Assembly: GCA_937911965.1 (NCBI GenBank)
Contig: CALDPL010000019.1
Coordinates: 1-17,131, forward strand
Length of the DNA: 17,131 nt
Reading direction: 5' to 3'
Origin: an uncultured Allomuricauda sp.
GTDB taxonomy: Bacteria; Bacteroidota; Bacteroidia; Flavobacteriales; Flavobacteriaceae
This document shows, in pieces, positions 608 through 14,258 of the stretch. Under the pieces are notes generated by a model. The model saw only the letters and a list, made by a program, of their open reading frames with translations, did no database searches and was not told where the DNA came from. Position 1 is the stretch's first letter, and every line of letters starts with the position of its first letter. Made by a program: the position numbers and the translations under genes.

Positions 608-896
608 ATCATTTTGTCCCCCTTGGGGGAATCCATCTCATGGGGCCAACCTCCTTTTGCAGGGAAGGATTGCCGATTACACAAAAAAACCTGCCGTCCA
701 TACAAAATTTACGGTCAGGGCATTGTATTATTTTGTAATTTCATTGGGTCGTGCCCGAACCAGGTTCATCGGCAGGGAAGGCCCCTGCCCTATGTCCGCT
801 CCCCGTTAAGGGCCCCGACCCGACGGTTCCCGGGTTCCTGCATATCTCCCAGATTGGAATTATACCGTTGGAAAACATTTGCAAAAAACTGAACGG

Positions 897-1580
897 ATGA
901 CCCTTGTACAGCCCAAAACCAAGCAGGTGCTTATCGTGGAGGACCACGCTCTGAGCAGTACGGGGTACAAGCTGATTTTGGAGGATCCGGTTAAATTGGA
1001 CGATGAACCGACCTACGAGGTCAAGACAGCCCATACTTTAAAGGAAGCGCATGATTGTTTGATGGAGGTGGATGGAATCTTCGATATCGTCCTATTGGAC
1101 ATCCGTATGAAGGCCTATCCGGAGTTGAAACTGTTTTCGGGGGAGGATCTGGGCCAAGTGATAGTGGAGCGGTTTGGAGACACCAAGATAATCGTATTGA
1201 CGAGCATTCTGGACAAGAACAGGTTGAACGGGATATTGAAAGCCTTGAAACCTGCGGGCTTTTTAATTAAAACGGATGTCGACCCCAAGTCCCTGAAAGA
1301 TGCCTTTAGGCAGGTATCCAATGGCATGCGATATTATTCCAATTCGATAATGGACCTTATAGAGGGCAACTATCTTTCGGGCATTGAACTGGACGATGGG
1401 GAGAGGGAGTTTCTATACCTACTGTCAATAGGCGTTCCGACCACCGGGATTCCCGATCATCTGCCCTGGTCCCTTTCGAAGGTGGAGAAAAAGAAAAGAA
1501 AGCTCAGGGAGCAATTGGATGTCGAGGGGAAAAACATCATGGCCCTGATCCACAGGGCCCGGGAGTTGGGGATCATTTAA
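897..1580 (+). CDS. NarL/LuxR-type response regulator (cassette 1)
   Basis: A 227-residue two-component response regulator that should bind DNA when phosphorylated. The N-terminal receiver domain (about 9-140) keeps all the usual residues: acidic pair E15-D16 in VLIVED, phospho-acceptor D68 in IVLLDIRM, T102 in IIVLTSI and K125 in GFLIKTD. Residues 166-227 look like a divergent GerE/LuxR helix-turn-helix, starting ELDDGEREFLYLLSIGV and ending in RARELGII. I chose the ATG at 897; a TTG at 879 in the same frame would add six residues. No histidine kinase is in the window, so it is an orphan here. The C39/VKOR/thioredoxin fusion follows 207 bp downstream. Broken copies of this gene lie at 8738-9059 and 11653-12192, each again upstream of a thioredoxin remnant and a peptide gene, which suggests it regulates the peptide cassettes (inference). 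Confidence 0.87.
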   Translation: MTLVQPKTKQVLIVEDHALSSTGYKLILEDPVKLDDEPTYEVKTAHTLKEAHDCLMEVDGIFDIVLLDIRMKAYPELKLFSGEDLGQVIVERFGDTKIIVLTSILDKNRLNGILKALKPAGFLIKTDVDPKSLKDAFRQVSNGMRYYSNSIMDLIEGNYLSGIELDDGEREFLYLLSIGVPTTGIPDHLPWSLSKVEKKKRKLREQLDVEGKNIMALIHRARELGII

Positions 1581-1787: not shown

Positions 1788-3368
1788 ATGGACAACTGTA
1801 CTGCCGTGACCGGAAATTTATTGGCCAGACTCAAGATCGGATATACCGATCGATTTTTAATGGACACTATTCTTTCCCACCCGGAACATCCCAGTTTGTT
1901 GGCCGTTTCGGACACCCTATCGAAATACCAAATTGAGGACCTTCCGGTAAAAGTGGATGGCCACAGGCTCCAAGGACTTCCATTGCCGTGTATTGTACAA
2001 TTGTCAGACAACGGCGGGATGTTCCATGTTTTGACCCGTTATTCCGCAAAGGAGTCCATCTATTTGAATGACAAAGGAAAACAGGTGGCGATTCCTACCA
2101 AGGAATTCTTGACCAGATGGACCGGGGTTTGTCTATTGGCCGAAACAACTGCGGATTCAGGTGAACCCGGTATTGCGGAGAAATTGGCCAGGAGAAGAAC
2201 CATGGCCATTTTCAAATGGGCCGGGGCATTTTTCCTGTTGGTCTGGGCAGTTTTCAGCTTTTCCGATTCCCAACTTGCACCAGAAATAAATCCGTTGTTG
2301 GTCGGGGCATATGCATTGTTTAAAGTATCGGGACTTGCCGTGGGGACAATGTTGCTCTGGTACGAGGTGGACAAATACAATCCCACACTGCAAAGTTTTT
2401 GTTCAGGCGGCAAGAAGGTGAACTGTGATTCTGTCCTGAATTCCAAATATGCAAAAGTCTTTGATGGAAAGGTGAGTTTGGGGTCGATCGGTTTCTCATA
2501 CTTCTTCGGCACGTTTTTCTTTTTGCCCATCAGCGGTTTTTCCGGTACATCCCTGGCCCCCTTGGCCTATTTGAGTTTTGCCTCCCTTCCCATAGTGGCC
2601 ATATCCGCTTACTATCAGGGTTTGGTAATCAAACAATGGTGCAAATTCTGTATCGTTGTACAAGCGGTATTGCTTCTGGAAGCGGTAATCGCTTTCTTGG
2701 GTGGGTTTCATTCAATCGGATTGGAGTTTGGCCCATTGTCACTGTTGTTGGCATTGCTTCTTATCCCTATTCCTTTGTGGAATTGGCTCAAACCATTGCT
2801 CGAAAAGGAAAAGGAAGTCAATCTATATAAACGTGGGCTCAAGAAGTTAAAGAACAATCCCGATGTGTTCATGGGTTTGTTGCGGAAAAGCCGAAAAATA
2901 GAAACCGATGTTGAAGGTTTGGGCATTTCCTTAAGAAATGACACAGCAAGATATGATGTCATAAAAGTATGTAACCCCTATTGCGGGCCTTGTTCCAAAG
3001 CTCATCCTTTATTGGATGAACTGTACCAAAAAGGGTCGATCAACCTACAAATTATCTTCACCGCCAGCGAAGAGGAAAATGATCGAAGGTATAGTCCCGT
3101 AAGCCACTTATTGGCCATTCACATGACCGACCCCAATGGTATAGCAAAAGCACTGGATGACTGGTATATGGCCGACCAAAAGGATTATGGTGTTTTTGCG
3201 GACAAATATCCGCTGAATGGAGAGATACATCAGCAAAAAGAAAGGATAAAACAAATGTGGGATTGGTGCAAAGTTGAAAAGATCACACATACTCCGACCG
3301 TTTTTATCAATGGACACGAATTGCCCAAGGAATATGGTATTGAAGATATTAAAGGGATTCTCGGATAA
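1788..3368 (+). CDS. C39-like / VKOR / thioredoxin fusion membrane protein
   Basis: A 526-residue protein predicted to make disulfide bonds. Residues 1-120 resemble a C39 peptidase domain (PSLLAVSDTLSKYQIE, then H80 at the catalytic His position), but the canonical Q..D-CGxxC start is absent, so it is probably a non-catalytic leader-binding domain. Residues 140-330 form a VKOR membrane domain with several hydrophobic segments, the loop cysteines C205 and C213 and the active-site pair WCKFC (C285, C288). A soluble thioredoxin/DsbA-like domain follows, with CGPC at 399-402 and a cis-Pro loop at T502-P503. All catalytic cysteines of the VKOR and thioredoxin parts are present. The gene lies downstream of the response regulator and ends 6 bp before a hairpin and the structured element that precede peptide 1. 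Remnants of its 3' end occur at 9140-9405 and 12340-12565. Family knowledge: VKOR-Trx fusions oxidise secreted proteins. Inference: the substrates here are the cysteine-rich peptides. Confidence 0.9.
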   Translation: MDNCTAVTGNLLARLKIGYTDRFLMDTILSHPEHPSLLAVSDTLSKYQIEDLPVKVDGHRLQGLPLPCIVQLSDNGGMFHVLTRYSAKESIYLNDKGKQVAIPTKEFLTRWTGVCLLAETTADSGEPGIAEKLARRRTMAIFKWAGAFFLLVWAVFSFSDSQLAPEINPLLVGAYALFKVSGLAVGTMLLWYEVDKYNPTLQSFCSGGKKVNCDSVLNSKYAKVFDGKVSLGSIGFSYFFGTFFFLPISGFSGTSLAPLAYLSFASLPIVAISAYYQGLVIKQWCKFCIVVQAVLLLEAVIAFLGGFHSIGLEFGPLSLLLALLLIPIPLWNWLKPLLEKEKEVNLYKRGLKKLKNNPDVFMGLLRKSRKIETDVEGLGISLRNDTARYDVIKVCNPYCGPCSKAHPLLDELYQKGSINLQIIFTASEEENDRRYSPVSHLLAIHMTDPNGIAKALDDWYMADQKDYGVFADKYPLNGEIHQQKERIKQMWDWCKVEKITHTPTVFINGHELPKEYGIEDIKGILG

Positions 3369-3374
3369 ACAAAA

Positions 3375-3468
3375 GGCCCAAGAATTAATCCTTGGGCCAT
3401 GAACGATATTGCTTTCGCGAAGCATGGACCGAAACCTTGACGGTCCCCAAACGTTCAGGGCAAAGTTA
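3375..3468. promoter_or_regulatory. Structured element copy A: hairpin plus three-way junction
   Basis: First of three well-conserved copies. It starts with an 8-bp perfect hairpin (GGCCCAAG 3375-3382 / CTTGGGCC 3391-3398). A predicted three-way junction follows: P1 TGAACG 3400-3405 with CGTTCA 3452-3457, P2 GCTTTCGCGAAGC 3411-3423, and P3 GGACCG 3426-3431 with CGGTCC 3441-3446 around the loop AAACCTTGA. It ends in GGGCAAAGTTAATTTT. Before the IS inserted, the peptide 1 start codon would have been about 30 bp from the end of the element. The minus strand of CAAAGTTA reads TAACTTTG, a perfect Bacteroidota -7 box, and the first hairpin is followed on that strand by TTTTGTTT, so a minus-strand small RNA is one possibility. 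A plus-strand mRNA leader is the other. Confidence 0.7.
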
Positions 3469-3484
3469 ATTTTAAATTTTTGTT

Positions 3485-4783: not shown

Positions 4784-4796
4784 ATTTTTGTTTATT

Positions 4797-5000
4797 ATGA
4801 AAAGTTTAGATTTAAACAAGTTGGACCTTGGAGCGGAAAACCTGCTCCATAGAGATCAGTTAAAAAATGTTATTGGAGGATTTGAAAAGCCGTATGATGG
4901 ATTTGAATGTGCGAATGATTATGAAAGATGTGATAGTGCCCATCCTGATGATTTTTATGATTTTCAGGAATGTATGTTCTGGGCAGGTTGTCTTTATTGA
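4797..5000 (+). CDS. Peptide 1: cysteine-rich precursor with double-glycine leader (4 Cys)
   Basis: A 67-residue precursor. Residues 1-28 are a leader beginning MKSLDLNKLDLG and ending ENLLHRDQLKNVIGG, the Gly-Gly site cut by C39-type exporters. The predicted core is 39 residues, strongly acidic and aromatic, with cysteines at 38, 45, 59 and 65. The ATG at 4797 is fixed by alignment with the three other precursors in the window, all of which have Gly-Gly at 27-28. The IS4-family insertion lies immediately upstream and cuts it off from the structured element A, so expression may be lost or may now depend on the IS. A GLPGLI protein gene follows 79 bp downstream, after a hairpin. The mature activity (bacteriocin, signal or other) cannot be told from sequence. 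Confidence 0.85.
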   Translation: MKSLDLNKLDLGAENLLHRDQLKNVIGGFEKPYDGFECANDYERCDSAHPDDFYDFQECMFWAGCLY

Positions 5001-5025
5001 TTCTTCCAAACTTTAATTTTAAACT

Positions 5026-5060
5026 GACACCCCTTAACCAGTATTGGCAAAAGGGGTGTC
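5026..5060 (+). terminator. Intercistronic hairpin between peptide 1 and GLPGLI gene
   Basis: GACACCCCTT (5026-5035) pairs perfectly with AAGGGGTGTC (5051-5060) around a 15-nt loop. No T-run follows, so it is more likely an mRNA-stabilising or partial-termination hairpin that lets the peptide be made in excess over the downstream GLPGLI protein. Confidence 0.45.
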
Positions 5061-5079
5061 CCCCAATCATGATACATTT

Positions 5080-5808
5080 ATGAAAAAATTATTATTGATC
5101 GTATGCATAATAAGTGTCAACCATGTTCATTCCCAGAACGTAAAGGCAAAAGTTGTTTATGAGGCCACATCGGTTGGAATAAATGCCTCAAGGCTTGGGT
5201 TGGACTACAAATATCCGGATAATGAAATTCTGGATTTACCTAAAAAACCCGTTTTATTCCATTTAATCGTTAATGGGAACGAGGCAGTGTTTCAGCCCGA
5301 ACATGATTTGCCCACAAAAAAGAAATTGGGCTTCACCTATGATAAGACCGCCGTTTTGGCCCAACACGATAAGGTCTATTACACAAATTCAAATACTGGT
5401 GAATCCTTTTTTCAAAGTTTTTGGACAGTGAATACTTTGGTGTACACTGATGAGGTGACTTGGAAACTTGGTGAAGAATCCAAGAAAATTGGAGGTTATT
5501 TATGCCATAAGGCCACAGCTGAAATAAAGGCTAAACAATTAAAAGGGATGAATTATATCCGCCCAATCGAGGCATGGTTTACCAAAGAGATTCCAATCCA
5601 ATTCGGCATCCAAAATCTCAATGGACTTCCTGGATTGATGCTGGAACTACATCTGGATTATGAAAAGGGAAGCGTCAGTTTCAAGGCTTTGGATGTTCAA
5701 TTGCCCTTGGATGAAAAGCTAGAAATGGTTAGGCCCGTGGGCAGTCAGAAAGTATCCCATGAAGAATACTTGGAAATGATTGATTTGATAATCAAGAAAA
5801 GATTATAA
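5080..5808 (+). CDS. GLPGLI-family secreted protein, partner of peptide 1
   Basis: A 242-residue exported protein with signal peptide MKKLLLIVCIISVNHVHS before QNVKAKVVYEA. It carries the family signature NGLPGLMLELHLDYEKGSV from residue 181 and the conserved IGGYLCHKA region around C142. The family is Bacteroidota-specific and of unknown biochemical function; the fold is thought to be beta-rich and periplasmic or surface-exposed. I chose the ATG at 5080 because it begins the signal peptide; an in-frame upstream start at 5044 would put 12 unrelated residues before it. It follows peptide 1 after a hairpin. A second GLPGLI gene overlaps peptide 4, so pairing of this family with a leader peptide occurs twice in the window and suggests a role in immunity, maturation or reception of the peptide (inference). 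Confidence 0.88.
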   Translation: MKKLLLIVCIISVNHVHSQNVKAKVVYEATSVGINASRLGLDYKYPDNEILDLPKKPVLFHLIVNGNEAVFQPEHDLPTKKKLGFTYDKTAVLAQHDKVYYTNSNTGESFFQSFWTVNTLVYTDEVTWKLGEESKKIGGYLCHKATAEIKAKQLKGMNYIRPIEAWFTKEIPIQFGIQNLNGLPGLMLELHLDYEKGSVSFKALDVQLPLDEKLEMVRPVGSQKVSHEEYLEMIDLIIKKRL

Positions 5809-5892
5809 GGCTTCTTTTTCAATCAATGTTTCCTATTAATTAATTGGGAAGTTGAAAGAAAGATTCGAGAGGCATAGTGACATGAAATTTCC

Positions 5893-5985
5893 CCCCAAGA
5901 CATTTGTCTTGGGGAATGAACAAAATTGCTTTCGCGAAGCATGGACCGAAACCTTGACGGTCCCTAAACGTTCAGGGCAAAGTTA
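5893..5985. promoter_or_regulatory. Structured element copy B, upstream of peptide 2
   Basis: This copy has the same architecture as copy A and nearly the same sequence in the junction. A 9-bp hairpin CCCCAAGAC (5893-5901) / GTCTTGGGG (5906-5914) differs completely in sequence from that of copy A but occupies the same place. P1 is TGAAC 5917-5921 with GTTCA 5970-5974, P2 is GCTTTCGCGAAGC 5928-5940, and P3 is GGACCG 5943-5948 with CGGTCC 5958-5963. CAAAGTTA (5978-5985) again closes it, 20 bp before the ATG of peptide 2. The first hairpin has no T-run on either strand. Confidence 0.7.
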
Positions 5986-6004
5986 ATTTTAAAACTTTTA
6001 AATC

Positions 6005-6202
6005 ATGAAAAATTTGAGTTTAAAAAATTTGAATTTTAGTGCGGACAGCCTATTACCAAGAGAACAGTTAAAGACGGTATTTGGAGGACACCTCATTAAG
6101 GATTGCCCTGATGGTCATGCAAAGTGCAGTTGTTCAAATCCTGATGGGAGTGTTACCGTAGGTTGCTCCTCGAGCGGGAACTGTGATGGTTTTTGCGATT
6201 GA
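6005..6202 (+). CDS. Peptide 2: cysteine-rich precursor with double-glycine leader (6 Cys)
   Basis: A 65-residue precursor. The leader of 28 residues starts MKNLSLKNLNFSAD and ends SLLPREQLKTVFGG. The core of 37 residues has six cysteines, is rich in Gly, Ser and Asp, and contains DCPDGHAKCSC. The CPDG-x-x-C start resembles that of peptide 3 (CPDGKPC), so these two cores may be related, while peptides 1 and 4 differ. It is preceded at 20 bp by the conserved CAAAGTTA end of structured element B and followed by a terminator-like hairpin and a TlpA-like thioredoxin gene. The even cysteine number and the neighbouring thiol-disulfide protein fit a disulfide-bonded secreted product. Confidence 0.85.
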   Translation: MKNLSLKNLNFSADSLLPREQLKTVFGGHLIKDCPDGHAKCSCSNPDGSVTVGCSSSGNCDGFCD

Positions 6203-6215
6203 TAGTGTTAAATTT

Positions 6216-6237
6216 GGCCCGGTATATCTACCGGGCC
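6216..6237 (+). terminator. Strong hairpin after peptide 2
   Basis: GGCCCGGTA (6216-6224) and TACCGGGCC (6229-6237) form a perfect 9-bp stem with a 4-nt loop, followed by ATTTATCC. It lies 14 bp after the peptide 2 stop and 19 bp before the next start codon. It is probably a terminator or attenuator that lowers expression of the TlpA-like gene relative to the peptide. The T-run is short, so termination may be partial. Confidence 0.6.
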
Positions 6238-6255
6238 ATTTATCCGTATTATAAT

Positions 6256-7809
6256 ATGCTTAAAAAAACCGTATATCACAAGGCCCCTTGTGCCCTAATG
6301 GCTATTGGTACAAGTATATTGCTATTGGGTTCATCATGTTGCGAGAACGTCAAAAAATATCCGGAGGTACATATCACTGGGTCCGTGCCGCACGCACATG
6401 ATTCGTCTTATGTTGCGTTCACCAGATTATTGGATACCGATGGCAACAATTATTTCAGAAGGTTTGACAGTGTACCCATTATCGATGGCCATTTTAAAAA
6501 AACATTTCCCTTGCGAAATTCTACCAGTGTAGCCGTTCTGGCAAGTAGTGAAGCCATTCCCAGTATTCACCTAATTATTGATGGAGAAGGAGAGATTGGA
6601 ATGACCATTAAAAGGTCCGTGCCGTATTTTGATGTCACCTTTACCGGCAAAAATGCCAAAGGGCATGATCTAATCTTCGATTCGAGCCTATTACGGGTGA
6701 TCCACTTGGTAAATGTACTCAATGGGGTTATGGAACAAGGGGTGGATTCACCTCAAATGTTGATACGGCGCACTGAGGAGATCCTCGACAGTTTGGTTGC
6801 CCCATTCGATGATTTATTGACCAAGGAGCAAATTACTTCCAAGTTCTTTGACCAAGTAAAAATCCAAGCGGAAGGCAAGATGTTGAATGCCGTACACCAC
6901 ATTATGGCCCACGCGTATCGCTACCCCAAAACCTCGGCTTTCAAAAAAGAGGCCATCGACACCATACTGGTTCATTTCTTTACGAAATACAATCCATTTT
7001 CCGAACGCTATCGGTTCAATTTGGGAATTATTAGAACATTGAATGCCGAGAACAAGTGTGGGTTGATAGATCGTGGGCTGCTGCCCGGAAGCCGGGTGCA
7101 GCTTGACATCTGGCCGGATAAGTTCGCACATTATGCCTTTGCTCCCGCAGAACTACAGGAAAAGATGATGGCCACACAGATCCGCCTGAGTAGAGATTAT
7201 GGGGAGAACCCCATTTGCGAGGATTTACAACGGTTCCACAAGTTTAAGGAGACCTTTCCCGAAAGTGCCTATAATTCCGTGTTCCAGAACAGGTACTTTG
7301 ATGACCTGGACTGTGATGGCGAACCTAGGGAACGCGCCATATATCCATTTGCCACGCTAGGGGCCGATAGCCTCTCCCTGATCAAGGAATATCAGGGCAA
7401 CACCTTGGATTCACTTGTACAAGAACGGTTCTCGGGCAGAAAGGTCTTTGTGGATCTATGGGCCACTTGGTGCTCCCCTTGCATACAAGAATTTGGATTT
7501 ATTGAAGAGGTGAAACCGGTTCTGGTGGAGCTGGGAATCGAGGGGTTGTTTGTCTCGATCGACCGCCTGCGGGCACGCAAGAATTGGGAAGAGGCCATAC
7601 GTAGGTACCGTTTAGAGGGAAGTCATTTTTTGGTAGGTCATGAGATTGATTCAACCCTGAGGGCCCAATTGGAAGAGAATGGCGAAATAACCATCCCGCG
7701 CTACCTATTATTTGACGAACAAGGAAAGCTCTTGGACGATGACCTACCACGACCAAGCTCGGGAAGACTGATAGACAGACTTCGGGAACTCTCCAAATTC
7801 AATAACTAG
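6256..7809 (+). CDS. TlpA-like thiol-disulfide protein with long N-terminal domain
   Basis: A 517-residue exported protein. The N-terminus (MLKKTVYHK, then IGTSILLLGSSCC) looks like a lipoprotein or signal segment, with a loose lipobox before C28/C29. Residues ~35-130 resemble the beta-rich DUF4369-like domain often found before TlpA modules, residues ~140-380 are helical and unassigned, and residues ~385-517 are a TlpA/AhpC-type thioredoxin fold with WATWCSPC (C406, C409) and cis-Pro P481 in EITIPRYLLF. Active-site Trp and both cysteines are present. I chose the ATG at 6256; in-frame codons back to 6193 overlap the peptide 2 gene and encode no signal peptide. Its place behind a six-cysteine peptide suggests reduction, isomerisation or proofreading of disulfides in that peptide (inference). 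The C39 exporter pseudogene starts 6 bp after its stop. Confidence 0.85.
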   Translation: MLKKTVYHKAPCALMAIGTSILLLGSSCCENVKKYPEVHITGSVPHAHDSSYVAFTRLLDTDGNNYFRRFDSVPIIDGHFKKTFPLRNSTSVAVLASSEAIPSIHLIIDGEGEIGMTIKRSVPYFDVTFTGKNAKGHDLIFDSSLLRVIHLVNVLNGVMEQGVDSPQMLIRRTEEILDSLVAPFDDLLTKEQITSKFFDQVKIQAEGKMLNAVHHIMAHAYRYPKTSAFKKEAIDTILVHFFTKYNPFSERYRFNLGIIRTLNAENKCGLIDRGLLPGSRVQLDIWPDKFAHYAFAPAELQEKMMATQIRLSRDYGENPICEDLQRFHKFKETFPESAYNSVFQNRYFDDLDCDGEPRERAIYPFATLGADSLSLIKEYQGNTLDSLVQERFSGRKVFVDLWATWCSPCIQEFGFIEEVKPVLVELGIEGLFVSIDRLRARKNWEEAIRRYRLEGSHFLVGHEIDSTLRAQLEENGEITIPRYLLFDEQGKLLDDDLPRPSSGRLIDRLRELSKFNN

Positions 7810-7815
7810 TTAATT

Positions 7816-8440
7816 TTGGGATTCCCTTTCTACAAACAACCCGATTCCAAAGACTGTGGCCCTACTTGTTTGCGGATCATTGCCAAGCATTATGGCAAGC
7901 TGATCTCCTTGCAGGAGATCAGGGAAATCTCCGAGACCACAAGGGAGGGCAGCAACCTTTTAAAACTCAGCGATGCCGCCGAGGCCATGGGGTTCAAATC
8001 CATTGGGGTAAAAATCGATTACGATCAATTAAAAGAAGTTCCACTGCCCTGTATCGTACACTGGAACAAAAGCCATTTTGTGGTGGTCTATGCCATAAAA
8101 AAAGATGTCATCCACATTTCGGACCCCTCCTATGGGCTGATCACCTACACCAAAGAAGAGTTTCTGTCCCGTTGGGTCGGCAACAATGCCACGGAGGCCG
8201 CCAAAGAAGGCATAGCCCTGTTGTTGGAGGTCACCCCAAAGTTCCACAAACTGGATTGGGAGAGTACCGACAAAAAATCGCTGCGTTTCCTGTTCCAATA
8301 CCTGTTCAAGTACAAAGGCCTGTTGGCCCAATTGTGCATTGGGCTTTTGTGGGGAGCCCGATGCAACTCATCTTTCCTCTCCTTGCCCAAAGCATTGTGG
8401 ATGCCGGGGCCCCGTGGGACTATTTGGGGAAGAATTTTTC
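7816..8440 (+). pseudogene. C39-peptidase ABC exporter, frameshifted and truncated
   Basis: The N-terminus is a well-preserved C39 bacteriocin-processing peptidase: Q8 and C14 in KQPDSKDCGPTCLRII, H87 in WNKSHFVVVY and D103 in ISDPSYG, the normal oxyanion-Gln, Cys, His and Asp set. From residue ~157 the first transmembrane segment begins (FLFQYLFKYKGLLAQLCIGL). Near 8350 the frame breaks, and the homologous continuation PMQLIFPLLAQSIVDAG is found one frame over (8358-8408) before similarity ends around 8440. A full exporter is about 700-730 residues, so nearly all of the membrane domain and the whole ATPase are missing. The only start in this position is a TTG (7816), another sign of decay. 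The free peptidase domain (~155 residues) could still be translated, but export would need another transporter. Confidence 0.85.
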
Positions 8441-8470
8441 GGGAGGGAACCATTCCTCGGCCCATGGGGC

Positions 8471-8575
8471 GGGCTTCAACGGGTTCAGGGTCCATAGGAA
8501 ACCGACCGCATTGGGGACAAACCACATTGTGGTCAACCCGGCGGACACTCCGATTACAACTGCCCGAAAAAGAGC
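8471..8575 (+). pseudogene. IS110-like transposase fragment
   Basis: About 35 codons in the frame of the exporter's second part read GFNGFRVHRKPTALGTNH followed by IVVNPADTPITTA. This resembles the N-terminal RNase H-like (DEDD) domain of Bacteroidota IS110-family transposases, where IVVNPADxPTT is a recurring motif. No start, no C-terminus and no element ends are visible. Insertion and later decay of such an element would explain the truncation of the exporter just upstream. The assignment rests on motif memory only. Confidence 0.5.
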
Positions 8576-8737
8576 ATGCCCAGGGAACGGGTCAACTTCA
8601 TCCACTGTAATATGGGCAGGGTGGTATCGATACCGTTGGTACCCACAAGGACCCGCTGGGATATAGGCCATTCGGTGCCCGATCTGTACCCAGGGCAACT
8701 GAATCTGGAGTTCAACAAAAAAACGGGGGATGGCTAG

Positions 8738-9059
8738 ATCAAGATAATGATTATGACCGGTATTTTGGGCCGAAATATACTAAAGGGAATCATGACCTCT
8801 TAGGATTCCTTGGACTTTTTATTGAAGACGGAGGCCGACCACAACAGCCTGAAACTGGCCTTGGCACAGCTGTTGCAATGGAACCGTTATTATTCCGGGT
8901 CCATCCTGGACCTTCTAGAGGACTGGTATTTTACTGAAATGTGAAATGGACCTGGATTTTGAGGAAAGGGAGTTGCTCCACCTGCCCTCCATAGGGGTCC
9001 CTACCCATTGGATCTCTGGGCGTCATTTAAGGAAAGTGGACAGAAAACCACACAAACTA
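8738..9059 (+). pseudogene. Response-regulator remnant (cassette 2)
   Basis: Translation in shifting frames gives IKIMIMTGILGRN, then DFLLKTEADHNSLK, then NRYYSGSILDLLEDWYF, then FEERELLHLPSIGVPTHWI and HLRKVDRKPHKL. These align in order with residues ~97-203 of the intact regulator at 897-1580 (TKIIVLTSILDKN, GFLIKTDVDPKSLK, MRYYSNSIMDLIEGNYL, GEREFLYLLSIGVPTTGI, SLSKVEKKKRKL). In-frame stops occur near 8804 and 8938 and a frame change near 9020. The N-terminal third with the phospho-acceptor Asp is gone. It is more diverged from the intact gene than the copy at 11653, so it is the older duplicate. Confidence 0.8.
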
Positions 9060-9069
9060 TGTGGTTTTC
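9045..9069 (+). terminator. Hairpin after the cassette 2 regulator remnant
   Basis: AAAACCAC pairs with GTGGTTTT around a 9-nt loop (ACAAACTAT). The stem ends in T4 and the next bases are CCTACCC. It corresponds in position to the weaker repeat after the intact regulator (near 1593-1620), and so probably reflects an ancestral terminator of the regulator gene. Confidence 0.45.
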
Positions 9070-9139
9070 CTACCCAACCGTCTTGGTTGGATTTTTTAGC
9101 TTTGTCACAATCCCCAAGATGTTGAAAAAAGGCCCTTTG

Positions 9140-9405
9140 GTTGAAAAAAGATTTACCATCCTTTTTCAACCATCGCCCAACAGTGAAATTGAAGGGTTTT
9201 GGACAACGAACATCATAAAGGACTACCGGGCCTTTGCCAAAAAACATCCTATGAACGGGGAGCTTGGGAACCAGGATAAATAGTTGAAGGCAGGGTATAA
9301 GTGTTGCGACGCAGAAAAGATAAGCCGTACCCAACTATATTCATCAATGGACATGAACTGTCCACAGGGTATAGTGTGGGGGACTCAAAGGTGGTATTGA
9401 AGTAA
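9140..9405 (+). pseudogene. Remnant of the VKOR-thioredoxin fusion gene, 3' end (cassette 2)
   Basis: The frame reads RFTILFQPS, FWTTNIIKDYRAFAKKHPMN and, after a stop at 9281-9283 and a frame change near 9332, AEKISRT and TIFINGHELSTGYSVGD. These align with the end of the fusion protein at 1788-3368 (LQIIFTASE; DDWYMADQKDYGVFADKYPL; VEKITHTPTVFINGHELPKEYG). Everything upstream, including the VKOR domain and the CGPC site, is deleted. The stop at 9403-9405 is followed 15 bp later by a hairpin, as in cassette 1. Confidence 0.8.
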
Positions 9406-9420
9406 AACCAAAAGATAAAA

Positions 9421-9510
9421 GTCCAAGGAACACTTGGACCTGGACGAGACATTTTCTCAAAATGTGGCCATAAACCTTGGGGTAGGCTTAAATGACCAAG
9501 GGAAATATAA
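9421..9510. promoter_or_regulatory. Degenerate structured element copy D, upstream of peptide 3
   Basis: The opening hairpin is kept (GTCCAAG 9421-9427 / CTTGGAC 9433-9439), with TTTTATCTTTT following it on the minus strand. A second hairpin ACATTTT 9449-9455 / AAAATGT 9459-9465 sits where P2 would be. The P3 loop sequence AAACCTTG (9472-9479) is preserved, but the P3 stem is weak and P1 is not clear. The trailing AAATATAATTTTTAAA resembles CAAAGTTAATTTTAAA of copies A and B. Peptide 3 starts 18 bp after the end of this interval. The homology is inferred from position and from the shared loop. Confidence 0.5.
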
Positions 9511-9527
9511 TTTTTAAACTTATCATT

Positions 9528-9761
9528 ATGAAAAAGGTTAGGTTAAAAAACCTTAATTTAAGCACCAATGAATTGTTGCAAAGGGAGCAGTTAAAGACTG
9601 TTTTTGGAGGTTATGTTCATGATATATGCCCTGATGGAAAACCCTGTCTGATTCAGTGTCCTAGTCGGCAGATATGTGGTGGTCCGTATTGCCCCACGCA
9701 AATAAACGTAGACGAAATTTGCAGTGAACCAGGTGGGATTTGCAATTGTTATTATGTTTAA
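9528..9761 (+). CDS. Peptide 3: cysteine-rich precursor with double-glycine leader (8 Cys)
   Basis: A 77-residue precursor. The 28-residue leader starts MKKVRLKNLNLSTN and ends ELLQREQLKTVFGG. The 49-residue core contains eight cysteines, beginning YVHDICPDGKPC and ending GGICNCYYV. I placed the start at the ATG of 9528, where it aligns with the other leaders; an in-frame ATG at 9492 would add 12 residues that the other precursors lack. Unlike the other peptides it has no partner gene next to it. What follows is IS debris, then a metalloprotease-like gene 707 bp away. Its reading frame is intact although the regulator and thioredoxin genes upstream are ruins, so it may be under selection or simply be a small target for mutation. 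Confidence 0.83.
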   Translation: MKKVRLKNLNLSTNELLQREQLKTVFGGYVHDICPDGKPCLIQCPSRQICGGPYCPTQINVDEICSEPGGICNCYYV

Positions 9762-9807
9762 AATCGGCCCGTTCAACCAATAGCTTTTAAAAGACATGTT
9801 GAAGTGA

Positions 9808-9930
9808 TTTAAACTTTTTTTGGATCGAAAAAAAGGGTTGCGGATATTTGTGTGTTGCGAAACATAAACAAATCCAAGACAACCCTTTATGTACAAAGTA
9901 CGGCAATTATTGTTTAAAAAAAAGTTTAAA
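9808..9930. repeat. Nested inverted repeat, MITE-like
   Basis: Two nested pairs of arms share one centre. The outer arms are TTTAAACTTTTTTT (9808-9821) and AAAAAAAGTTTAAA (9917-9930), and the inner arms are AAAGGGTTG (9832-9840) and CAACCCTTT (9880-9888). A further imperfect pair GGATATTTGT / ACAAATCC lies inside. The sequence is AT-rich with no gene inside. It abuts an IS3-like orfA fragment, so it could be an IS end region, a small non-autonomous element or a large RNA hairpin. No target duplication is evident. Confidence 0.6.
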
Positions 9931-10059
9931 GATGGACTGGAAGAGGTGGAATCGGATGGTTGTCATGTTTCTTTTCCAGCTTCTGGATTGTAAAACCCTC
10001 CGATAAAGCTTCCAGCAGTACCTTGAACTTGAACTCAGTGTGAACTTTCTTCGTGTCAT
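9926..10059 (-). pseudogene. IS3-family OrfA fragment
   Basis: On the minus strand the translation KVHTEFKFKVLLEALSEG, then FTIQKLEKKHDNHP, matches the N-terminal helix-turn-helix of IS3-type OrfA transposase proteins (xxEFKxKVxLEAL...I.ELxxKxxxHP). An ATG at 10059 (MTRR) is one base out of frame with this segment, and a stop follows soon after the match. It is therefore a frameshifted and truncated remnant; OrfB is not present. Confidence 0.65.
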
Positions 10060-10468
10060 GATACAGTATTTAGATTAAAAACTTAACTTACTTTTAAAAC
10101 CGGAATAAAGCACAGGTACGGCAAGCAAGTTTTCCATCAAAAATGTATTTGACCGACTTACAAAGGAATCTTTTGCCGCCTGATGCAGACAACAAGCTCC
10201 CCGAGTTGGAGTGATTGGATTTCATTGCCAGGGTAGAACATATACTGGCAGGAAACCTGGACACGGAAAAACACATATTGCTGTTGGCTTGGGCCTAAAT
10301 GCCATATGTAGGGCAGTACACAAATTGCCGACACAAATTAGAGAATCCCATTCGCAACCCATATGAGTTTAGGTTAAATAAAAACGGAAACGGTATTGAC
10401 GATTTATACTATTATAGGATTGTAAATAATTTATACAGTGGCACTTAAAATTTTATCCTTATTTTAAA
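10060..10468. other. Gene-poor AT-rich stretch before the metalloprotease gene
   Basis: No intact gene is visible. Around 10143-10330 a decayed frame reads MYLTDLQRNLLPPD, then LDFIARVEHILAGNLDTEK after a stop. The second part faintly recalls the start of an AraC-type helix-turn-helix (DxFxxRVxxIxxxNLxxE), but conserved later residues are missing and I do not call it. The last ~100 bp are very AT-rich and may hold the promoter of the gene at 10469; TAGGATTG near 10415 differs by one base from a TAnnTTTG box. Confidence 0.35.
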
Positions 10469-11371
10469 ATGATACTGGTTAACAGGAAGTTCGTTCTGAT
10501 ATTCTGTATTTGTTTCTTAGGTCAAATACCAATATCACATTGCCAAAAACCCCAAAATAATAAAATAAAACTTCTTCATGATATTTCGACTTTTCTCAGA
10601 TCGGAGTTTGGAATGGAAATTTCAAAGCAGTTTTATACCAAATGGGATGAAAATGAGAAGGGCCATTATGTCGTGTATTTTTCAAAACCCGATGAGATAG
10701 ATGGTCATCAGCGAGGTTTCGGAGACGAAGTAAGTGCGATTGATTTCAAGGTAAAGCAAGATAGTTTAGGATTTCATACAATGATATATCATACATATGG
10801 CAGTGCTGCCGTCAGACTGTCTGGGCACTTGCTCTCATATTCCGAAGAATCCCTTGGTTTTATAGGTTTCCACGAGGCTACCCACACTCATTTTAGAAAT
10901 AAAGGTACATACTTACCATATAGTGTGAATGAGGCAGCCTGTGATGTACTGGCCAATTACCTAACCATTGAGTTTGCTAAAAAAGATAAGAGAATTTCAT
11001 ATCTAAAAGCCAAGAAACAAAGAAAATACATAGAAAAGATAGGTAATTTGGTTAACCAGGCATCAAGTGCCCTAAAATCTGGTCAAACATGTAAGTTTAT
11101 CAAAAAAAGTAGGATCCTAAAAAGACAAGTTGACAAACTTGATGAAAACTATTTCGAGGATAACTTTTTAAAAGATCGGTATTTTTATGAAATTAATAAT
11201 GCATTCCTTTTAAGGAACACTTACTATAGTAAATATTATTTCAAACTAAGGGAGTTATTAAATTTAACTGATATTAATACTTTTTTGAAGGTTTTGGATA
11301 GTCTGCCTAAAAAGGAAGAAGAATGCTTTGCAGCTATAAATGCTGCAATTGATGTGGCAAAAATTCATTAA
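10469..11371 (+). CDS. Predicted secreted zinc metalloprotease-like protein (HEXXH)
   Basis: A 300-residue protein with an N-terminal signal segment (KFVLIFCICFLGQIPISHC before QKPQ). The key feature is FHEATHTHF, an HEXXH zinc motif (H135, E136, H139), followed 16 residues later by NEAACDVLANYL, where E155 fits the third zinc ligand of gluzincins. The C-terminal half is Lys-rich and helical with no recognisable domain. I cannot name a family; distant aminopeptidase-like zincins have the same H-E-x-x-H...N-E-A layout. Base composition is clearly more AT-rich than the flanking genes, suggesting separate acquisition. It sits between cassettes 2 and 3 and could process or degrade a secreted peptide, but that is only a guess from position. 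Confidence 0.65.
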   Translation: MILVNRKFVLIFCICFLGQIPISHCQKPQNNKIKLLHDISTFLRSEFGMEISKQFYTKWDENEKGHYVVYFSKPDEIDGHQRGFGDEVSAIDFKVKQDSLGFHTMIYHTYGSAAVRLSGHLLSYSEESLGFIGFHEATHTHFRNKGTYLPYSVNEAACDVLANYLTIEFAKKDKRISYLKAKKQRKYIEKIGNLVNQASSALKSGQTCKFIKKSRILKRQVDKLDENYFEDNFLKDRYFYEINNAFLLRNTYYSKYYFKLRELLNLTDINTFLKVLDSLPKKEEECFAAINAAIDVAKIH

Positions 11372-11384
11372 GCAGTAGGACTGT

Positions 11385-11650
11385 TCACTCATTTTCCATG
11401 GGTAGGAAGATAGGGATTTCCTGGAAAGGCGTTCCGGATCTGCTCGAGTACCGGTTGCCCGTTCTTCTTCAGGGACGAGATATACCCCCTGATGCGTGCG
11501 AAGTATCATGCGTGCTGGGGTGACCGGAAACAGCCGGATACCTTCTGTTTCACCTTGATCATCCTCAGGTCCCTTTCGGCCTGGTTGTTGTCGAAGGGGA
11601 CCTTGGGCCATGGGAGGAACTTCAGGAACAGGTCCTTGTGCTTTTCCAGT
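11385..11650 (-). pseudogene. IS66-family transposase C-terminal fragment
   Basis: The minus strand encodes [19 protein letters not shown], then [20 protein letters not shown], then YFARIRGYISSLKKNGQPVL and EQIRNAF, the hallmark C-terminal region of IS66 transposases (DNNxAERxLR...K.K.SG.FRS). There is an internal TGA just before YFARIRGY, and a one-base insertion near the end puts the natural ending (QEIPIFLPMENE, stop at 11385) out of frame. At its upstream side (11650) it joins directly to the truncated response regulator of cassette 3, so an IS66 insertion or deletion probably removed the 5' part of that gene. Confidence 0.88.
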
Positions 11651-11652
11651 GG

Positions 11653-12192
11653 GGGGTACAAGCTGATTTTGGAGGCCCCGGTTAAATTGGACGACGAGCC
11701 TGCCTACAAGGTCAGGACGGCCCATACTTTAAGGGAAGCGCATGATCGTCTGATGTCCGGGGATGGATCCTATGACATTGTCCTTCTGGACATCCGCATG
11801 AAGACCTATCCGCGGCTGAAACTGTTTTCCGGGGAGGGTCTGGGAAAGTTGATCGTGGAGCGGTGCCCGGACACCAAGATAGTCGTGTTGACCGGCATTC
11901 TGGAGAGGAACAGGTTGGACGGGATTTTGAGATCCTTGAACCCCGCGGGCTTTTTGATAAAAATGGATGTCGGCCCCAAGTCCCTGAAAGATGCCCTTTG
12001 GCAGGTGTCCAAAGGAAACCGGTATTATTCCAATTCGATACTGGACCTTATAGAAGGCCACTATTTATCGGGCATTGAACTGGACGATGGGGAGAGGGAG
12101 TTTCTATACCTACTGTCAATAGGCGTTCCGACCACCGGGATTCCCGATCATCTGCCCTGGTCCACAGGGCCCGGGAGTTGGGGATCATTTGA
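11653..12192 (+). pseudogene. Truncated response regulator (cassette 3)
   Basis: Homologous to the regulator at 897-1580 from its GGGGTACAAGCTG (residue ~23) onward, with the same phospho-acceptor region IVLLDIRM, VVLTGILE and GFLIKMD. It lacks the first ~22 residues, including the acidic pair, because the IS66 fragment abuts it. Relative to the intact gene it also lacks 79 bp between CTGGTCC and ACAGGGCCC, at a TCC repeated on both sides of the deleted segment (bases 1470-1472 and 1549-1551 in the intact copy). This puts the end of the HTH out of frame. Bases 12068-12163 are identical to 1377-1472 of the intact gene, while the upstream part is clearly more diverged. Confidence 0.88.
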
Positions 12193-12339
12193 TGGAGGTT
12201 TGCGGGAAACTCCCCAAAATGTACGGTTTTTATACCCCTTGGAATCATTTCAATGTCTTAGTTTTAACACACTGTCCGGATTTTGCACGTAAGATCAGGT
12301 GGCAAGGTTGATTCCAAAGGAGATTAAAGGACGACCCAA

Positions 12340-12565
12340 GGCGCATTTATTGATTGGTGCATTTCAAAAGAAGAGGACCATGGAGCGTATGCCAACGGAC
12401 ATCGAATGTAGGTTGTGAGGGGGGGACAGGACGGGAAGGTTGGAGGCAATGGGCCAAATGTGCCCGGTCGATAAGAAAGCGCACACCCCCGCCATATTCA
12501 TGAACGGCCATGAACAGCCAAAAGAGTATGGTGTGTAGGATTTAGAGAAAGGGTTGAATTGTTGA
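12340..12565 (+). pseudogene. Remnant of the VKOR-thioredoxin fusion gene, 3' end (cassette 3)
   Basis: The translation gives FIDWCISKEEDHGAYANGH and, after a stop and a frame change, KKAHTPAIFMNGHEQPKEYG. This matches DDWYMADQKDYGVFADKYP and EKITHTPTVFINGHELPKEYG at the end of the intact fusion protein. The region between (about 15 residues) is scrambled, and everything upstream of the DDW segment is missing. The last stop (12563-12565) lies 4 bp before the hairpin of element C, the same arrangement as in cassettes 1 and 2. Confidence 0.8.
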
Positions 12566-12569
12566 AAAA

Positions 12570-12660
12570 CGGCAGGAGCTATGCCTTGGCCGAACGATCG
12601 ATATTGCTTTTGCGGGGCATGGACCGAAACCTTGACGGTCCCCAAACGTTCGGGGCAAAG
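12570..12660. promoter_or_regulatory. Structured element copy C, upstream of peptide 4
   Basis: The first hairpin is CGGCA...TGCC(G) (12570-12586), with GTTTTTC after it on the minus strand. P1 is longer than in A and B, CCGAACG 12590-12596 with CGTTCGG 12647-12653. The T-A pair of A and B is a C-G pair here, a compensatory change. P2 is GCTT 12606-12609 with GGGC 12615-12618: the two A bases of copies A and B are G, which keeps pairing as G-U only if the RNA is the plus strand. P3 and its loop (12621-12641) are identical to copy A. The -7-like box on the minus strand has an extra base (AAACTTTG). Confidence 0.7.
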
Positions 12661-12682
12661 TTTAATTTTTAATGATTGTATT

Positions 12683-12922
12683 ATGAGAAAATCGAGTTTG
12701 AATCAATTAAACCTTGGAGCTGAAAACCTGCTGCATAAGGAACAGTTGAAATCTGTTTTAGGGGGGTATGCACCAAAGGAGAATGACTGGCCCTGTTATG
12801 ATTCTGGTTGCCTTTCATACTGTGGAGACCAAGCCACATGGTTATGGGAGAATTCCAGTATGACCGATCCACAGGTTCAGAGTTGGTATATGGGCTGTTT
12901 GGATTCGTGTTGTAATGGATAA
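12683..12922 (+). CDS. Peptide 4: cysteine-rich precursor with double-glycine leader (6 Cys)
   Basis: A 79-residue precursor. The leader of 28 residues starts MRKSSLNQLNLGAE and ends NLLHKEQLKSVLGG, closest to the leader of peptide 1. The core of 51 residues has six cysteines, three near its start (WPC, SGC, SYC) and three near its end (MGC, SCC), separated by a Trp/Ser-rich stretch. The ATG at 12683 aligns with the other leaders. Its coding end overlaps the start of the downstream GLPGLI gene by 8 bp, implying translational coupling. Structured element C ends 22 bp upstream of the start. Confidence 0.87.
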   Translation: MRKSSLNQLNLGAENLLHKEQLKSVLGGYAPKENDWPCYDSGCLSYCGDQATWLWENSSMTDPQVQSWYMGCLDSCCNG

Positions 12923-13697
12923 GTTGTTTTTTCCATCCCCTTTCCTCAACCTGGTTCAGGAAGCCATTGTCGCCACTTTTCTTGGTTTAATGATCAATAT
13001 GTCCTTTGCACAAGAATATACTTCCGGCAGTATAATCTATGATGTTTATGAAGGAAATTATACCAGTGAGGTTGGGCAAAATATATTCAATTTGGGAAAT
13101 GGAAGTGCCAACCAAGATGATTATTGGCCAAAGAGCATATTGTTGGAATTCAACGGTAACAGCTCCTATTGTATGCTGACGCCTGAATCCACAATTTCCA
13201 ATAACAATTGGTCAAAATTTAAGGAGTCTTCTTTGGAACTGATGGGCGAAACCTTTTACTCGATTTCCGATAAGGAGCTTCTGACCACTTATGATGACTA
13301 TGGAACCTTATACCTCATATCAAAAAAGGACGAAGAAATTCAATGGGACTTGAAGGAAGGGGCAAAAACTATTTTGGGATATTCCTGTAAAAAGGCCGTT
13401 CGCAGAATAATGTATAGAAGAAACAGTCAATCATGGGTAGTGGACTATGTGGCGTGGTACGCTCCAGGAATTGCGGTTCCTTTTGGGCCGTTTGACCATG
13501 TCAATCTCCCAGGCTTGGTCCTGGAGGTAGAAAAGACCGGGGGGCATACGGAATTTAGATATGTTGCCAGGGCCATCGATGTGGATAGGAATGATTCTCT
13601 TATAATCAATAAACCTTCCAAGGGTGTGCCCATAACACAAAGGGAGTATGATAGGAAACTGAGGGATAGGCTAAACGAACTTTTTGGTGGGAAATAA
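12915..13697 (+). CDS. GLPGLI-family secreted protein, partner of peptide 4
   Basis: A 260-residue exported protein. A hydrophobic segment IVATFLGLMINMSFAQ ends at a likely cleavage site before EYTSGSIIYDVYEG. The signature NLPGLVLEVE (197-206) is a one-residue variant of GLPGLI (first Gly replaced by Asn), and GYSCKKAV around C158 matches the equivalent GYLCHKA of the other GLPGLI protein at 5080-5808. The start overlaps the last bases of the peptide 4 gene, which favours translational coupling. The first ~14 residues before the hydrophobic core are unusually long; a downstream start at M26 or M29 would leave too little signal peptide. The function of the family is unknown. The IS200/IS605 element begins within 5 bp of its stop. 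Confidence 0.85.
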   Translation: MDKLFFPSPFLNLVQEAIVATFLGLMINMSFAQEYTSGSIIYDVYEGNYTSEVGQNIFNLGNGSANQDDYWPKSILLEFNGNSSYCMLTPESTISNNNWSKFKESSLELMGETFYSISDKELLTTYDDYGTLYLISKKDEEIQWDLKEGAKTILGYSCKKAVRRIMYRRNSQSWVVDYVAWYAPGIAVPFGPFDHVNLPGLVLEVEKTGGHTEFRYVARAIDVDRNDSLIINKPSKGVPITQREYDRKLRDRLNELFGGK

Positions 13698-13701
13698 ACG
13701 A

Positions 13702-14258
13702 CCCCGGGGCAAGCCCCGAGGTATTAGAACAACTTAAGTTGCCCTGAGTGTATTTTTTGATACTCTTTTTCCTTGCCTTGGCTCTCCACATATTTCCGAA
13801 TGACATCCTTGTTCCCATACTGCCCCACCGTGTTGGCATAGTACCCACTGGTCCATAAACTTCCTCCCCACAAAAACTGTTCCAGCTCCGGGTGCAATCG
13901 AAACAATTCCCTCCCCGTTATACTCTTTATGGGCCTGACCATATCACTCACCGATATGGAAGGAACACTCTGGACCAAAAAATGGACATGGTCCGACTCA
14001 TGGCCTATCTCAACAAACCAAATCTCATATCGATCCGAAATACCATCACAGATTTCCTTGAGGGTCCGTCCAGAATCCTCCGTCAACACTTTCCTCCTGT
14101 ATTTCATAGGAAGCACCAAATGGTACAACAACAGGGTCTTGTTGTGACGTTTGTATATATGTTCATCTTCCACTTGGCCAATCTACGCTTTTCCATGTGA
14201 TATGAAAAACCATCCGTTTTTCAAACTTTTCCTCCTTACCCCGGGGCAAGCCCCGAGG
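13702..14258 (-). mobile_element. IS200/IS605-family element with paired end hairpins
   Basis: The 20-bp sequence CCCCGGGGCAAGCCCCGAGG occurs at 13702-13721 and again, in the same orientation, at 14239-14258. Each can fold (GGGGC-TTG-CCCC), which fits the left- and right-end imperfect palindromes that this family's single-strand transposase recognises. Only one gene, a TnpA on the minus strand, lies between. No inverted repeats or target duplication are expected for the family. The exact cleavage points outside the hairpins cannot be set from this one copy. Confidence 0.8.
13724..14173 (-). CDS. tnpA: IS200/IS605 TnpA (Y1 HUH transposase)
   Basis: A 149-residue protein with the normal length of IS200 transposases. 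It has the HUH metal-binding pair H62-V-H64 in ESDHVHFLVQ and the catalytic tyrosine Y128 in VIRKYVESQG, preceded by the usual LWTSGYYANTVGQYG segment. The N-terminus HNKTLLLYHLVLPMKYRRKV is typical as well. There is no TnpB in the element. The frame is intact, so the transposase could be active. Confidence 0.93.
   Translation of the reverse strand: MEDEHIYKRHNKTLLLYHLVLPMKYRRKVLTEDSGRTLKEICDGISDRYEIWFVEIGHESDHVHFLVQSVPSISVSDMVRPIKSITGRELFRLHPELEQFLWGGSLWTSGYYANTVGQYGNKDVIRKYVESQGKEKEYQKIHSGQLKLF

Follow-up and report, generated by a model that had tools for sequence, protein, structure and literature searches.

A candidate structured RNA leader and a putative dedicated disulfide-forming enzyme at a locus of cysteine-rich Gly-Gly-leader peptides in Allomuricauda

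The subject of this report is a 17,131-nucleotide (nt) stretch of contig CALDPL010000019.1, from an uncultured Allomuricauda sp., which we refer to as the window. It holds four small open reading frames (ORFs) for cysteine-rich peptide precursors whose leaders end in Gly-Gly (GG), an intact gene for a fusion of C39-like, VKOR, and DsbA-like domains, and four copies of an intergenic element that we read as a candidate structured RNA. These features, with protein lengths in amino acids (aa), are as follows.

1788..3368, + strand: C39-like + VKOR + DsbA-like fusion, putative dedicated disulfide-forming enzyme; 526 aa, intact; identified by Pfam and by comparison of a structure model with the PDB
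3397..3473, + strand: candidate RNA element copy 1 (~77 nt); belongs to precursor 1, from which an insertion sequence now separates it
4797..5000, + strand: precursor 1; 67 aa, 28-aa GG leader, core with 4 Cys; core type also in relative P0003
5914..5990, + strand: candidate RNA element copy 2; 14 nt ahead of the precursor 2 ATG
6005..6202, + strand: precursor 2; 65 aa, 28-aa GG leader, 6-Cys core of the CPDGxxxCSC... type
9438..9514, + strand: candidate RNA element copy 3, diverged and the lowest scoring in the window; 13 nt ahead of the precursor 3 ATG
9528..9761, + strand: precursor 3; 77 aa, 28-aa GG leader, core with 8 Cys
12592..12669, + strand: candidate RNA element copy 4; 13 nt ahead of the precursor 4 ATG
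12683..12922, + strand: precursor 4; 79 aa, 28-aa GG leader, 6-Cys core; core type also in P0006 and P0007

The original prediction, made on this DNA alone, described four precursors with nearly the same leader and differing cores of 4, 6, 8, and 6 cysteines. The four ORFs are as it described them: every leader has 28 residues, is free of cysteine, fits the pattern LLx[RK][DE]QLKxV[ILF]GG, and carries its GG at positions 27 and 28, and the cores of precursors 1 to 4 are 39, 37, 49, and 51 residues long. For precursor 3, the ORF list offers a further ATG upstream, at 9492; 9528 was chosen as the start that matches the leader. "Nearly the same" is a little strong, given that leaders 2 to 4 are 50 to 64% identical to leader 1, but the similarity among the four precursors exceeds chance as judged by tblastn, with E values from 1e-13 (2 versus 3, including part of the core) to 4e-5 (1 versus 2). 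A profile built from 20 leaders (4 from the window and 16 from relatives) recovers leaders of relatives outside its seed, with E values down to 3e-17 (L023), and the core type of precursor 2 recurs in L005, L006, L013, and P0008 to P0010. None of the four window precursors matches an NCBIfam or Pfam family at cut-off.

The relatives come from a scan of genome contigs for the fusion, which gave 24 loci (25 counting the window); these include Flagellimonas, Croceivirga, Arenibacter, Flavobacterium, Gaetbulibacter, Galbibacter, Salegentibacter, and two Arachidicoccus loci. A cysteine-rich GG-leader precursor begins 107 to 184 nt past the fusion gene in 20 of the 24; the distance is greater in L019 and L023, and in the two Flavobacterium loci, there is no precursor after the fusion gene on that strand. 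Core cysteines are even in number in 32 of 33 nonwindow precursors, mostly six, with a single core of seven (binomial 4e-9, with related sequences taken as independent). This set excludes a precursor truncated by the end of its contig (L009) and two matches with E values above 0.3, of which the L021 match has a single Cys and the L002 match is not a GG precursor. C39 domains outside the fusion are found in 21 of the 25 loci, the window included (weakly in L021), and when gene clusters were identified by Pfam on one representative each, an ABC-transporter cluster appeared in 21 of the 25, one for HlyD in 19, and TlpA-like ones in 11. The prediction of exported-type, cysteine-rich precursors that have a common leader and resemble those of bacteriocins or ribosomally synthesized and posttranslationally modified peptides (RiPPs) is supported. 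Plasmids of Parabacteroides and Emticicia show the order fusion, small six-Cys peptide, and DUF4369 or TlpA-like gene; based on this gene order, the protein system extends beyond the Flavobacteriaceae.

The original prediction overlooked a dedicated oxidase, as well as decayed duplicate cassettes and a conserved RNA element. In Pfam, the fusion scores 60.7 bits for VKOR (cut-off, 27.5) and 29.3 bits for Peptidase_C39. Cysteines 205, 213, 285, and 288, which characterize the VKOR family, are present in 26 of 26 fusion sequences, and the cysteines of the DsbA-like domain are likewise invariant in all 26. The C39-like domain (residues 1 to 125) is modeled with the same fold as the C39 or C39-like domains of PCAT and HlyB proteins (PCAT1, ComA, LahT150, and 3zua), but it differs from these in having no His at the catalytic position and in its fusion partners, which are VKOR and DsbA-like domains rather than an ABC transporter. 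In an hhalign comparison of the 26 sequences, the catalytic-His column reads L14 M6 V3 R1 A1 Y1, and 6 of the 26 have a His at position 80, two residues past that column; 20 of the 26 have a Cys at position 4, and the region of the catalytic Cys is unaligned. With known VKOR enzymes (Synechococcus VKOR and the VKOR-like protein of Takifugu), the fusion has in common the VKOR fold and the four conserved cysteines; Synechococcus VKOR also carries a thioredoxin-fold domain. The fusion differs in having a C39-like domain at its N terminus and an additional hydrophobic helix ahead of the VKOR bundle (129 to 159 in the model, with a hydrophobic stretch at 140 to 158 following a basic one), and its gene lies beside peptide precursors. 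The disulfide bonding that the original prediction expected of the cores is made plausible, if indirectly, by the fusion gene standing directly before the precursor in those 20 of 24 relatives.

The intergenic stretch 3' of the fusion gene recurs ahead of precursors 2 and 4 and in the relatives. A nucleotide profile finds 33 copies of this element in 21 of the 25 loci, including the diverged copy before precursor 3, and 31 of the 33 are followed by a precursor ATG at 6 to 32 nt, mostly 11 to 22; the exceptions are copy 1 of the window, where the insertion sequence intervenes, and one copy in L019. In the proposed structure, a helix (P1) encloses two hairpins (P2 and P3), and a pseudoknot joins the P3 loop to the strand after P1. 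Across the alignment of the 33 sequences, 92.2% of cells pair (30 to 51% when slid), and double-change cells number 105, compared with 42 in shuffles; RNAalifold, unprompted, recovers P2 and P3 and misses P1. A second alignment, of 78 matches from 50 additional loci, has 87.7% of cells paired in the three helices (37 to 57% when slid) and 95 double-change cells against 29 in shuffles; this alignment was itself fitted to the model. The pseudoknot lay outside the search model; in the same 78-match alignment, it pairs in 93.5% of cells (27 to 71% when slid) and has 76 double-change cells against 25, with no shuffle as high and with pair types exchanged at five positions. Based on this strong covariation, the element is predicted to form a three-way junction with a pseudoknot, and we regard it as a candidate new structured RNA.

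Rfam, at its gathering score, places no family at the element in 13 sources (the window, L001 to L004, and 8 further loci), and a permissive Rfam scan of window positions 3360 to 6010, which hold elements 1 and 2, returned only a subthreshold SNORD44 outside the elements. An alternative two-state pairing drawn from single-sequence folding was unsupported (67.9% paired versus 68.8% in shuffles). Upstream of the elements, the vegetative promoter consensus TAnnTTTG is not enriched over random sites; an upstream hairpin at -5 kcal/mol or lower occurs at 54 of 111 elements versus 40% of random 45-mers, and we make no claim of it. Of the 33 copies found first, 22 start within 100 nt past the stop of an ORF of at least 100 aa, as do 31 of the 78 found later, versus 4% of random sites. 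Given this closeness to upstream stops and the lack of promoter enrichment, we interpret the element as an mRNA leader, in many cases located within an operon, that would act on translation or stability. A search of the open-licence literature found no title or abstract describing a C39-VKOR-DsbA peptide system or the RNA element. PMC9723704 reports 64 structured 5' regions in Flavobacterium psychrophilum, and the element could be among them, so we do not claim that it is absent from print.

How closely is the element tied to such precursors beyond these loci? A covariance model was run on 299 genomes of the family of L001 (Flagellimonas amoyensis), which we take to be the Flavobacteriaceae. 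Under strict filters that make the figure a lower bound, it gave at least 107 matches (E<=0.01) in 42 genomes; the fusion was found in 39 (E<=1e-30), and the two occur together in 28 (Fisher p 2.7e-20, or 3e-15 without the seven training genomes). Outside those seven genomes, there are 88 matches, 74 of them at E<=1e-3, and 65 of these 74 good hits lead into a GG-leader ORF sought 5 to 30 nt after the element, compared with 260 of 40,000 random sites (0.65%). The spacing found is 12 to 24 nt, usually 12 to 18, with a mode of 14, and the leader starts of the 65 precursors contain no Cys. Among the nine remaining good hits, those in G160, G260, and G075 look like precursors missed by the motif or start rule, those in G126, G214, G302, and G165 precede very short or displaced frames, and those in G036 and G064 precede other ORFs. 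A fusion gene lies within 12 kb of 43 of the 74 good hits, the other 31 being farther away or in a genome that has none; conversely, 22 of 40 fusion genes (from 52 fusion matches, outside the seven training genomes) have an element within 12 kb.

A phylum-wide sample of 395 genomes gave matches at E<=1e-3 in 6, two of them already known; in the other four, 23 of 23 matches are followed by GG-leader ORFs under a slightly more permissive test. No credible element was found on the Parabacteroides and Emticicia plasmids or in the Arachidicoccus and two Flavobacterium loci. The element also precedes precursors with other modification chemistry: in L133 (E 1e-4), it stands before a precursor that passes the class I lanthipeptide leader cut-off (NF038153), and in L154 (E 9e-5), it stands before a precursor beside grasp-with-spasm enzymes (TIGR04192/TIGR04193). 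G078 (15 elements), G611 (12), and G397 (9) are rich in precursors led by the element, several of which lie near one another. In L156, a weak element (7631-7705, E 2.5e-4) precedes a two-Cys, Gly/Ala-rich peptide that by eye resembles a class IIb-type bacteriocin, about 2 kb from a PCAT-like gene below the NCBIfam cut-off.

Other features of the window are as follows.

879..1580, + strand: response regulator, upstream of the fusion gene; PF00072 30.3 bits (cut-off 30.2); in the same place in L013 and L024
3485..4783, + strand: insertion sequence between RNA element 1 and precursor 1; DDE transposase 3607-4770, PF01609 + PF14294; 9-bp target duplication
5080..5808, + strand: GLPGLI family protein, exported-looking, directly after precursor 1; TIGR01200 108.5 bits (cut-off 50)
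6256..7809, + strand: TlpA/ResA-like protein of the thioredoxin fold, immediately downstream of precursor 2; candidate disulfide isomerase or companion; Redoxin 36.3 bits
7816..8610, + strand: PCAT N-terminal C39 peptidase domain, truncated after the first transmembrane part; PF03412 124.8 bits, residues 4-123
8732..9059, + strand: response regulator remnant, decayed, upstream of precursor 3; tblastn E 2.5e-12
9218..9399, + strand: C-terminal remnant of C39-VKOR-DsbA fusion, decayed, upstream of precursor 3; tblastn E 2.3e-9
11639..12189, + strand: response regulator copy, decayed, upstream of precursor 4; 79% aa identity over residues 24-198, E 2.7e-91
12343..12547, + strand: C-terminal remnant of C39-VKOR-DsbA fusion, decayed, upstream of precursor 4; tblastn E 1e-9
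12915..13697, + strand: second GLPGLI family protein, directly after precursor 4; TIGR01200 110.1 bits (cut-off 50)

The gene order before precursor 4 (regulator and then the C-terminal end of the fusion) is that of a decayed copy of the region upstream of precursor 1. The corresponding remnants before precursor 3 are more decayed, and precursor 2 is preceded by the intergenic element only, with no regulator or fusion remnant by tblastn. Judging from these similarities, the cassette of the window is duplicated, and its oxidase and regulator copies have decayed while precursors 3 and 4 stayed open. Broken or partial fusion genes ahead of precursors are also found in G005, G008, and G016. Among the nine nonprecursor window proteins scanned with Pfam, there is no radical SAM protein, LanB or LanC enzyme, grasp-with-spasm system, or HlyD.

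Do the genes that follow the precursors encode their partners? TlpA-like proteins after precursor-2-type cores in L005, L006, and L013 are 73, 68, and 34% identical to that of the window, which has one distant match at E<=1e-25 across the 299 genomes; we do not claim it as a cognate immunity companion of this precursor type, given that L011 has similar Cys spacing and no such gene. A GLPGLI protein as the partner of precursor 1 is seen again in G075 and contradicted by relatives in G094, G015, and G022 (~40% identity), which have neither the element nor such a precursor in the preceding 1.5 kb. With companion evidence so mixed, immunity proteins are not claimed. After precursor 3, at 10469-11371, lies an exported-looking protein with a putative metallopeptidase motif, HEATH, noted by eye, and a subthreshold DA1-like Pfam match. 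An IS200-like (Y1) transposase at 13724-14173 is flanked by near-identical 25-bp repeats at 13701 and 14238.

Several relatives carry genes of other kinds. The Parabacteroides distasonis plasmid locus L205 (5965-13572) has, besides the fusion, the small peptide, and a DUF4369 protein, genes annotated as LanC-like, galactosyltransferase-related, and PCAT. Downstream of HlyD in L002, L007, L013, L020, and L023 is a gene pair, one of the GT2 glycosyltransferase type (by Pfam on L013) and one of unknown family, and a DXD glycosyltransferase follows the precursor in L008. Given the glycosyltransferase-type genes in these loci, some of the peptides may be glycosylated.

Is this a known peptide system? 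The original prediction spoke of a possibly undescribed family, which is too strong for the leader: in a set of 34 precursors (A3), 19 match TIGR04149 (the GG leader of radical SAM-modified RiPPs) and 12 match NF047798 (leader_Chryseo, bacteriocin-like protein) at E<=0.1. For the window itself, the likeness is weak, the best member reaching 16.9 bits in TIGR04149, the closest informative model (cut-off, 25), and precursors 2 and 3 reaching 13.1 and 12.4 bits in NF047798 (cut-off, 23.5). Moreover, a system of the same kind is described in PMC6671954: bacteroidetocins, proposed class IIf bacteriocins of Bacteroidales that kill. Bacteroidetocins A and B contain four Cys, and the clusters include a PCAT gene and a thiol oxidoreductase gene whose deletion attenuates activity. 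The window resembles this system in its GG leaders, its Cys-bearing cores, and a thiol oxidoreductase beside the peptide, here the fusion at 1788-3368; its PCAT gene is truncated. However, bacteroidetocin leaders are given as 15 to 16 aa, versus 28 in the window; 2 of the 4 window cores fall outside the 42 to 53 residues given for mature peptides in PMC8546649; a thiol oxidoreductase and a five-transmembrane protein are described where the window has the fusion; and the accessible descriptions mention no RNA leader. Since leader length, core length in two of the four, and enzyme differ, we suggest by analogy that the window system works like bacteroidetocins and do not file it as a member.

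In total, we think it probable that the locus makes exported, probably bacteriocin-like, disulfide-bonded peptides served by a dedicated enzyme, each precursor being controlled by its own copy of a common cis-acting RNA leader. The disulfides, the antimicrobial activity, and the function of the RNA are all inferred from the genes and their neighborhoods. In this model, a PCAT, from this or another locus, would cut after the GG and export the core; the C39-like domain of the fusion would hold the leader without cutting it; the VKOR/DsbA part would oxidize the core cysteines to disulfides; and the TlpA-like companion may reshuffle the disulfides and correct their pairing. The RNA would act in cis on translation of the precursor or on mRNA stability, often inside an operon, and orphan precursors would depend on one intact enzyme set supplied in trans. 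Because each precursor has its own RNA leader, the duplicated cassette would keep common control despite the decay of its enzymes.

A number of observations weigh against this account. On the first alignment, two of the five measures of covariation fail to exceed shuffles (double-change pairs, with 261 of 500 as high, and pair types, with 71 of 500), and both the structure of the first alignment and the pseudoknot columns of the second were picked after the sequences had been viewed. Taken singly, three of the four window elements fold no better than dinucleotide shuffles, so the case for a structured RNA rests on covariation. The link to the fusion is also imperfect: 11 of the 39 fusion genomes have no element match, and 14 of the 260 fusionless genomes have one. 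The even cysteine counts on which the original prediction leaned hold among close relatives, but the 65 element-led precursors divide into 48 even and 17 odd, a weaker bias; odd counts in relatives, which that prediction had named as evidence against itself, are therefore found in part. Within the window, element 1 is parted from its precursor by an insertion sequence and element 3 is diverged. With the PCAT truncated and no HlyD among the scanned proteins, export from this locus alone is doubtful. Finally, the helix modeled ahead of the VKOR bundle makes it difficult to place the C39-like domain on a side of the membrane compatible with a VKOR active site in the periplasm.

Could the element be something other than a leader of the kind that we propose? 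A ligand-sensing riboswitch with two folds, setting many secreted-peptide genes under one small signal, would suit a three-way junction with a pseudoknot and conserved unpaired residues and the 15 copies scattered in G078; given that the alternative pairing found no support and that no ligand or metabolic gene logic was seen, we consider it unlikely. A DNA site, for recombination or for the binding of a regulator, that moves or controls cassettes would account for duplicated cassettes in the window and elements dispersed in genomes. It is much harder to square with covariation at five positions of a pseudoknot that the search model did not contain, with fixed orientation and spacing to the ATG, and with the frequent position just past an ORF stop, and we hold it to be very improbable.

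Other alternatives concern the peptides and the state of the locus. Signaling or developmental peptides, rather than antimicrobials, would fit the many copies per genome and the failure to find a certain immunity gene, and the antimicrobial role is itself an interpretation; the varied cores and the parallels with bacteroidetocins, which kill according to PMC6671954, speak for antimicrobials and leave the signaling role a lesser prospect. It is also conceivable, though we doubt it, that the window is a dead remnant whose export genes are broken, whose copies have decayed, and whose precursors are no longer made, as the truncated PCAT, the insertion sequence ahead of precursor 1, and the decayed copies would suggest. 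Against this, open reading frames are retained for all four precursors, for the fusion gene, and for the companions, and precursors behind broken or partial fusions recur in the three other genomes mentioned above, as expected if the enzymes act in trans.

Bacteroidota make up a major part of marine and gut communities, and to our knowledge few of their secreted peptides are known. The fusion enzyme would offer a testable route to making disulfide-rich peptides, and the RNA element offers a handle for listing precursors genome by genome, independently of peptide sequence. To generalize further, is one pseudoknotted RNA class the general cis-acting leader of exported GG-leader peptides in this bacterial family, whatever the chemistry of their maturation (disulfide, lanthipeptide type, or grasp-with-spasm)? 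We regard the chances as evenly balanced that it is, in which case it would form an RNA-based regulon gating the secreted-peptide arsenal of a genome and would serve as a marker for new precursors. If true, the control of bacterial antagonism would gain a new layer, in the form of a structured RNA linked to peptide precursors from several RiPP classes.

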